From contig NZ_JAVDYB010000001.1 in NCBI RefSeq assembly GCF_031458235.1, positions 7,775,001 to 7,839,000 on the forward strand: 64,000 nucleotides of DNA. The letters run 5' to 3'. The position numbers and the translations under genes were made by a program. The notes beneath the pieces were generated by a model that made no database searches, had not been told where the DNA came from, and saw only the letters and a program-made list of their open reading frames with translations. Shown in pieces: positions 58,681 through 63,515 of this stretch (positions within the stretch are counted from its first letter, which is position 1; the number at the start of each line of letters is the position of its first letter). Source of the DNA: Catenuloplanes atrovinosus. GTDB taxonomy: Bacteria > Actinomycetota > Actinomycetes > Mycobacteriales > Micromonosporaceae.

Positions 58681-58719
58681 GGCCGCGCGAGCAGACGCCT
58701 GCTCGCGCGGCCTTTCTTT
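58681..58719 (+). terminator. Rho-independent terminator after purM
   Basis: Perfect 14-base arms (ggccgcgcgagcag and complement) with loop acgc are followed by tttcttt. Confidence 0.9.
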
Positions 58720-58938
58720 GTATATGCCCGCTTCCGGCGTGGTCGCCGGCCGCACGCTCCCGCGGGCACCGGTCGTCGCTGGCGCTCCTCCCTGCACGGT
58801 CCGCGGGTGGTCGCCGAAAAGGTTGCACCCGAGTCGAGTGATCCTCCAGATATGGGATGGGGGGTTCACCCGGCTGGACAGCTCCGCCTAGCCTGAAACG
58901 GCATAACCCGCTGTTCATGCGCGTGAGAGGAGGGTGCG

Positions 58939-60060
58939 GTGGACGATCCGGGGATGCGCGGCATCGCCACCGTCCCGTCATACGTGGTGATGCAGCCGAC
59001 GACGCTGTGCAATCTCGACTGCACTTACTGCTATCTGCCGTTCCGTGCGGTCGACAAGCGCATGCCGGTCGCGGTCGCCGAGGCGGTCGCCGGTCCGGTG
59101 AACGCGTGGGCGCGCGACACCCGGTTCTCCGTGGTCTGGCACGGCGGTGAGCCGCTGGCCGCCGGGCGGGAGGCACTGGCCGCGCTGATGGCCCCGTTCG
59201 CGCCCGGCGTCGAGCATCACGTGCAGACGAACGCCACGCTGATCGACGACGCCTGGTGCGAGTTCTTCACCGCGCACGACATGCGGGTCAGTGTGAGCGT
59301 GGACGGCCCGCGCGAGCGCAACGGCGAGCGCGTCACCCGCGGCGCCCGCCCGGCGTACGACCGGATCGCGCGCGGCATCGAGACGCTGCGCCGGCACGGC
59401 ATTCCGTACTCGGCGCTGTGCGTGGTCGGCGAACCGCACCCCGGCCTCGCCACCGAGCTCTACGACTACTTCCTCGCGCTCGGCTGCGACGTGCTCGGCA
59501 TCAACGTCGAGGAGCAGGAGGGGGTCAACGCGCGCGACAACGGCTTCCCGGCCGAGGCGGTCACCGCGTTCTGGTCCGAGCTGGTCGCGGCCTGGCGGCG
59601 TGACCCGCGCATCCACGTGCGGGAGGTCGAGCTGTCGCTGCGGTACGCCGCCGCCGTGCTGGACGGCACCACCGCCGGCCTGCTGCCCCGCCGCCTCGAC
59701 CCGATCCCCACCATCGCGCACGACGGCTCGGTCGTGCTGCTCTCGCCGGAACTGGCGGGCTTCTCCGACCCGCGGTACGGCGACTTCACCAGCGGCAACG
59801 TGCTCGAGCGCGGGCTCGCCGAGATCCTGGCGGACGCGACCGCGACGCCGTGGATCGGTGAGTTCCTCGCCGGGGTGGAGGCGTGCCGTGCCCGATGTCC
59901 GTACTTCGAGTTCTGCGGTGGCGCGCATGCCGCCAACCGATACTTCGAGCACGGGCGTTTCGACGGTACGGAGACGAACCACTGCCGGAACAGCAAGATC
60001 CGCTTACTGGAGGGAGTGCTGCACCATGCCCGAGATCACCAACCCTCGGCAGCCGGATAG
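58939..60060 (+). CDS. Radical SAM/SPASM-type peptide maturase, AmcB-like
   Basis: A 373-residue radical SAM enzyme. The [4Fe-4S] cysteines are C24, C28 and C31 in CNLDCTYCYL, with SAM-binding WHGGEPL near residue 69. A C-terminal auxiliary-cluster region (GVEACRARCPYFEFCGG, then NHCRNSKI) is of SPASM/twitch type. The start GTG at 58939 has a gagaggagg site. Its 3' end overlaps the start of an aromatic-rich precursor peptide, which makes it the probable modifier of that peptide. I recall NCBI families for cyclophane-forming enzymes AmcB and precursors AmcA that look like this pair; the symbol is withheld because no comparison could be run. Confidence 0.85.
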   Translation: MDDPGMRGIATVPSYVVMQPTTLCNLDCTYCYLPFRAVDKRMPVAVAEAVAGPVNAWARDTRFSVVWHGGEPLAAGREALAALMAPFAPGVEHHVQTNATLIDDAWCEFFTAHDMRVSVSVDGPRERNGERVTRGARPAYDRIARGIETLRRHGIPYSALCVVGEPHPGLATELYDYFLALGCDVLGINVEEQEGVNARDNGFPAEAVTAFWSELVAAWRRDPRIHVREVELSLRYAAAVLDGTTAGLLPRRLDPIPTIAHDGSVVLLSPELAGFSDPRYGDFTSGNVLERGLAEILADATATPWIGEFLAGVEACRARCPYFEFCGGAHAANRYFEHGRFDGTETNHCRNSKIRLLEGVLHHARDHQPSAAG

Positions 60061-60265
60061 CGCCGCCGAGGAGACGCACGACTCGGTGGCCGAGCGGGTG
60101 CGGAGCGCGGGTGCCGGACTGACCGCACTGCTCGACGAGGCGGCGGAGGCACGCTTGCGCCGGGAGGAGACGGACGGGACCGGCGGCTCCAGCGCGGTGT
60201 GCGCGTGGAACCACTTCGAGAACATCCCGACCTTCTACAACTGGAACAACCGCCCTCCCCGCTGA
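60026..60265 (+). CDS. RiPP precursor peptide, AmcA-like
   Basis: A 79-residue peptide. ATG at 60026 has ggagggag nine bases upstream and lies inside the end of the radical SAM gene. Residues 1-50 are an acidic, helical leader (AGAGLTALLDEAAEARLRRE). After GTGGSSAV comes the core with C59 and four aromatic-x-Asn/His triplets: W61-N62-H63, F64-E65-N66, F70-Y71-N72 and W73-N74-N75, ending RPPR. Three-residue cyclophane enzymes link an aromatic side chain to the beta-carbon of the residue two positions on, so each triplet is a possible crosslink (inference). No protease or exporter gene is adjacent. Confidence 0.83.
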   Translation: MPEITNPRQPDSAAEETHDSVAERVRSAGAGLTALLDEAAEARLRREETDGTGGSSAVCAWNHFENIPTFYNWNNRPPR

Positions 60266-60276
60266 GCGGACGCGTC

Positions 60277-60321
60277 AGACTGGCGGATCGTCACAGGGAC
60301 ACTGCGACGATCCGCCAGTCT
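60277..60321 (+). terminator. Terminator of the RiPP cassette
   Basis: Perfect 16-base arms (agactggcggatcgtc at 60277-60292, complement at 60306-60321) enclose a 13-base loop and are followed by ttcc. This closes the cassette just after the precursor. Confidence 0.85.
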
Positions 60322-63305: not shown

Positions 63306-63515
63306 ATGGCATCGCGTACGCACGAACCAGAGCCGCTACTCACGCCGGCCGAGGTCGCGTCGATGTTCCGTGTCGACCCGAAGACCGTGACCCGGTGGGC
63401 GAAGGCGGGCAAGCTCAGCGCAATAAGGACGCTGGGCGGCCACCGTCGCTACCGTGAGTCTGAGGTTCGCGCCCTGCTGCAGGGGCAGATTCCCACGCAG
63501 CGTCAGGGTGACTGA
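63306..63515 (+). CDS. bldC: Developmental transcription regulator BldC
   Basis: A 69-residue MerR-like DNA-binding protein. It shows LLTPAEVASMFRVDPKTVTRWAKAGKLSAI in outline, then RTLGGHRRYRESEV, a near-invariant BldC sequence. In Streptomyces, BldC binds DNA cooperatively as head-to-tail oligomers and delays sporulation genes. Neighbourhood (conserved gene, leucine/valine dehydrogenase, DUF3073, purM) matches Streptomyces. The RBS ggaggag precedes the ATG. Confidence 0.96.
   Translation: MASRTHEPEPLLTPAEVASMFRVDPKTVTRWAKAGKLSAIRTLGGHRRYRESEVRALLQGQIPTQRQGD

Follow-up and report, generated by a model that had tools for sequence, protein, structure and literature searches.

The amcBA pair and its family

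The window analyzed here, a 64,000-nucleotide stretch of Catenuloplanes atrovinosus DNA, carries between purM and a convergent DUF3073 gene two genes of a predicted peptide-modifying system, amcB and amcA (Table 1). The amcB frame runs from a GTG to a TAG and encodes a 373-residue protein with a CNLDCTYC motif, while amcA runs from an ATG to a TGA in a different frame and encodes a 79-residue precursor peptide, the two genes overlapping by 35 bases. The original prediction of a two-gene unit enclosed by two strong terminators holds, with both reading frames in place, a good ribosome-binding site before each gene, and a promoter of its own. The terminator z values come from folding against shuffles, none of which did equally well at either site. 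The four triplets announced in the precursor core (W-N-H, F-E-N, F-Y-N, and W-N-N) are all present. The precursor ends in NNRPPR (60245-60262), with an extra Pro at a position where 102 of 103 precursors of the same form (form A, see below) have R (NNRPR).

Table 1. Features of the amcBA locus, with positions in the window
Feature	Position	Strand	Basis
Intrinsic terminator 3' of purM	58681..58712	+	14-bp G+C-rich stem, T-rich tail; z -4.2 for folded stretch
Sigma-70-type promoter of the amcBA pair, TTCACC-n18-TAGCCT	58865..58894	+	Comparison of 81 upstream regions
amcB ribosome-binding site AGGAGG	58928..58933	+	Sequence
amcB, cyclophane-forming radical SAM maturase (predicted)	58939..60060	+	NF041718, Radical_SAM, Cys conservation, fold
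amcA ribosome-binding site GGAGGG, within amcB	60009..60014	+	Sequence
amcA, 79-aa precursor peptide	60026..60265	+	NF041722 AmcA_3a
Conserved leader part GLTALLDEAAEARLRREE	60116..60169	+	Near-invariant L, LL, EA, AR, R, E positions
Core AVCAWNHFENIPTFYNWNNRPPR; predicted crosslinks F-E-N, F-Y-N, W-N-N, less surely W-N-H	60194..60262	+	Core invariance, diverged forms
Strong terminator hairpin between convergent amcA and DUF3073 gene	60277..60321		z -6.95

The promoter was not detected by a strict-rule scan of the window and emerged from the comparison of the upstream regions, where TAGCCT occurs in 73 of 81 (versus 1.8 in shuffles) and the complete pattern TT[CTG]AC-n17..20-TAGCCT in 55 of 81 (0 in shuffles). 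This conserved promoter, together with the flanking terminators, argues that amcBA is an independent transcription unit. Cotranscription with purM is unlikely, given the terminator downstream of purM and the promoter that follows it.

The maturase matches the NCBIfam AmcB model (NF041718) over residues 9 to 364 with 516.7 bits, above the curated equivalog cut-off of 425, and the precursor encoded beside it matches the AmcA_3a model (NF041722) with 110.9 bits for a cut-off of 65. Passing both cut-offs confirms the suspected radical SAM/cyclophane RiPP pair and its kinship with AmcA/AmcB. The maturase also matches the Radical_SAM domain. Its second-best model, GrrM/OscB (TIGR04261), reaches 224.5 bits, below the cut-off of 310, and XncB/XyeB (TIGR04496) reaches 55.2 bits for a cut-off of 450, so that the enzyme, although it shares a radical SAM likeness with the triceptide enzymes XncB, OscB (GrrM), and MscB, falls outside the GrrM/OscB and XyeB families. 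The triceptide enzymes link a ring carbon of Trp or Phe to the beta-carbon at position i+2 (PMC11002830).

All 92 purM-linked and all 13 unlinked homologues have Cys24, Cys28, and Cys31 of the radical SAM motif (CxxxCxxC) and Cys316, Cys320, Cys326, and Cys349 of the C-terminal auxiliary cluster. Conserved Cys residues number nine among the purM-linked proteins, with eight present in 92/92. The solved structures nearest by sequence are those of anaerobic sulfatase-maturating enzymes and of ChlB, a RiPP radical SAM enzyme whose structure was solved with its precursor leader. The AlphaFold2 model of the maturase (mean pLDDT 85, pTM 0.86) has as fold neighbors ChlB (TM 0.71-0.73) and anSMEcpe (about 0.67). 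A literature search run without most subscription journals returned no relevant paper on AmcA/AmcB and nothing on the ChlB enzyme.

With these cut-offs passed, the same locus in 80 relatives, and a conserved promoter, the amcBA pair is real, far beyond chance. By its sequence it is a member of the already catalogued AmcB/AmcA three-residue-cyclophane family and no new system: it has in common with that family the adjacent maturase and precursor and the aromatic-x-Asn triplets repeated at the C-terminal end of the precursor, and no sequence difference sets it apart. What is new here is the fixed residence between purM and DUF3073, the frozen core with its pattern of retention, the support for three over four crosslinks, and the contrast with unlinked AmcA_1 copies, to which the promoter is added.

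Residence at purM across Micromonosporaceae

AmcB was found in 160 of 201 sampled Micromonosporaceae genomes. Thirty-eight of the 41 apparent absences belong to nine genera whose sampled genomes all lack AmcB; in two others (G438 and G454) AmcB is cut off at a contig end, and the last (G484) is a fragmented assembly from a bearing genus. Practically all sampled genomes of the 35 bearing genera, Micromonospora and Actinoplanes among them, thus keep the pair. In the phylum sample AmcB occurs in only 2 of 397 genomes, namely C. atrovinosus itself and another member of the Micromonosporaceae, and in a class-wide set of 148 genomes AmcA_3a was not found beyond the family. In the genome of C. atrovinosus, neither the core nor AmcB was found a second time.

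Far from being private to this genome, the homologous pair lies at the same place in the 80 relatives compared, and the order purF-purM-amcB-amcA-DUF3073(-)-vdh(-)-unknown ORF-bldC is found in 79 of the 80 fetched loci, the exception being a contig that ends early. The conserved block comprises purF to bldC only. As first noted for the window, no exporter, protease, or immunity gene is found at the purM locus, and this extends to all 80 loci. The BldC-like developmental regulator of the block (63306-63515) lies 3 kb from the pair and is 99% identical in relatives. In a small group with an F-variant core, purM has moved off and is separated from the pair, whereas DUF3073 is not; e.g., at L099 (62-6802) purF-purM lie on the opposite strand at least ~2.7 kb from amcBA, and amcBA-DUF3073-vdh are still together.

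Frozen core, diverged forms, and unlinked copies

The form A core, AVCAWNHFENIPTF[Y/F]NWNNRP, is identical in 103 purM-linked precursors except for the Y/F position (98 Y, 5 F). In these precursors pN/pS is 0.009 for the core versus 0.60 for the leader, and mean pairwise identity is 0.993 versus 0.50. Synonymous changes do occur within the core (pS 0.34) while replacements are nearly absent, indicating a constraint on the peptide and not on the DNA. An RNA element or other nucleotide-level conservation behind the invariant core is likewise unsupported, in view of these synonymous changes. This invariance, absent from the original prediction, is the main point of interest of the locus. As judged from the diverged precursors, it is clade-wide and not absolute, since forms B and C differ in some genera.

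Form B (AmcA_3b, NF041723) has the same locus and maturase lineage and a core of the type W-R-[P/A]-FED-AFPT-FYQ-F[S/T]N-RP. It differs from form A by the lack of W-N-H, replaced by W-R-[P/A] or by no Trp at all, by the lack of Cys, and by D or Q in place of N in two triplets, the remainder reading F-E-D (F-S-D once), AFPT, F-Y-Q or F-W-E, F-[S/T]-N, and RP. Form C has the core R-W-T-D-V-F-T-T-Q-F-T-E-F-S-N-RPR (RWTDVFTTQFTEFSNRPR) and occurs at the purM locus of L131, L191, and L193; the L193 precursor, the sole one tested, matches no NCBIfam AmcA model (best 12.2 bits, cut-off 65). Altogether, the diverged orthologues retain Phe-x-[N/D], Phe-x-[N/Q/E], and [W/F]-x-N and have lost Trp-x-His; the persistence of F-x-[N/D] is less clear in form C, in which the last two adjacent triplets persist. 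Of the four crosslinks first envisaged, those at F-E-N, F-Y-N, and W-N-N therefore appear better supported than a fourth at W-N-H, the one triplet not kept. In one fragmented assembly only (G428, L196, 1489 to about 2730), the AmcB reading frame runs on into a shortened precursor with the end CESTGTYYNWNNRSR, an apparent maturase-substrate fusion on a long branch.

Some Micromonosporaceae genomes carry a second, unlinked amc copy, whose AmcB has about 41% identity and whose precursors are of the AmcA_1 type (NF041721). Maturase family and triplet logic are the same, and a core such as FDNRPTWDNKGKFDSRPGWDNWNKKK keeps the FxNxPT-aromatic-x-N spacing of the purM-linked core, FDNRPTWDN aligning with FENIPTFYN. 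These copies differ by their place off purM, by cores that differ among themselves in length and number of repeats, and by a pentapeptide-repeat gene 3' of the precursor in the three loci tested (L086, 4838-6878; L092, 4296-6336; L096, 3799-5775), a neighbor that the purM copy does not have. Pentapeptide-repeat proteins are known in connection with immunity to gyrase inhibitors, and those at the three loci could possibly be immunity proteins. Among closely related genomes, AmcA_1 cores too resemble one another to some extent, which makes the contrast with the purM core one of degree.

Role, predicted chemistry, and history of the peptide

Our joint reading, which we hold to be reasonably probable, is that the purM-linked type 3a unit would yield, from its own promoter and under purifying selection, a peptide with at least three crosslinks and one specific role in Micromonosporaceae. 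The near-invariant core and the single fixed chromosomal place favor a conserved endogenous role over that of an antibiotic; hence, the product would resemble an endogenous cofactor, signal, or structural peptide more than a diversifying antibiotic. The contrast between the two kinds of amc locus also supports the view that the purM-linked peptide may serve the producer itself. Going further and seeing in it a Micromonosporaceae-wide core metabolite (signal, cofactor-like, or structural) instead of an accessory natural product is a more tentative proposal, somewhat short of an even chance.

The most serious alternative is an antimicrobial peptide with its protease, exporter, and immunity genes elsewhere in the genome and its core frozen by an invariant target. 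A conserved target could indeed freeze a core in the same way, the related AmcA_1 loci have their downstream pentapeptide-repeat gene, and the characterized radical SAM RiPPs include the antibiotics darobactin and dynobactin (PMC11002830, PMC9055067). However, besides the lack of such accessory genes at the 80 purM loci, the pair is not lost within bearing genera, and neighbors that all make the same peptide would have no means of discriminating kin from rivals within the Micromonosporaceae. We consider this alternative unlikely.

Regarding the chemistry, cyclophane formation by AmcB is predicted from the AmcB/AmcA family and from XncB, OscB, and MscB. In the proposed mechanism, AmcB would bind the helical leader of AmcA (GLTALLDEAAEARLRREE), probably as a docking helix; its radical SAM cluster would form a 5'-deoxyadenosyl radical, the C-terminal auxiliary iron-sulfur cluster being also used; and a beta-hydrogen would be taken from the third residue (Asn) of the aromatic-x-Asn triplets. 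The resulting radical would attack the aromatic ring, joining the beta-carbon to the ring with a loss of 2 Da per ring. At least F-E-N, F-Y-N, and W-N-N would be modified, W-N-H being a potential fourth, and the product would be a conserved peptide expressed from the sigma-70-type promoter of the unit and kept by purifying selection. AmcB could instead, or in addition, make another modification, e.g., a thioether to the Cys of AVCAW. That Cys never varies in form A and occurs in the fused copy (L196) as well, and PapB-type ranthipeptide maturases are distant relatives of the enzyme (53 bits). Yet forms B and C, of the same maturase lineage, lack this Cys, and the top two model matches, AmcB and GrrM/OscB, are both cyclophane forming, which makes such a modification quite improbable.

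As to its history, the purM-DUF3073 interval compared across the Micromonosporaceae holds the pair as a fixed resident, while in the class-wide sample DUF3073 lies convergently 3' of purM in 24 of the 27 genomes whose sequence extends far enough, none of them with AmcB. In the PurM tree (71 rows, the bearing ones including four with AmcB but a precursor that could not be typed), the bearing rows group in a single supported clade (99/96) that excludes the lacking rows, and AmcB and PurM distances are correlated (Mantel r 0.854, 0/999 permutations). These comparisons are most simply read as a single ancient insertion that has since been inherited vertically. The proposed insertion into a conserved block is retained in so far as the block is conserved without the pair elsewhere, with the correction that it is old and not recent, the pair being ancestral in most of the family and kept there. 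Recent insertion of a mobile and self-contained RiPP cassette, which the own promoter, the enclosing terminators, and the adjoining purM and DUF3073 outside the family might suggest, is practically ruled out by the conserved synteny, the congruent AmcB/PurM divergence, the absence of mobile genes from the purF-bldC block, and the position of all lacking genera outside the bearing clade, and the single ancient insertion is still likely.

The majority of RiPPs are accessory products, patchily distributed and variable in their cores. Judged by sequence comparison, the amcBA pair is ordinary in kind, and what is unusual is its strict conservation, its fixed place, and the absence of detectable loss within the clade. 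AmcA_1 copies, found in the same bacteria and more variable, provide an internal contrast to the purM-linked peptide. That 35 genera keep a peptide with a frozen core and three or four predicted rings points to a physiological role in these bacteria.
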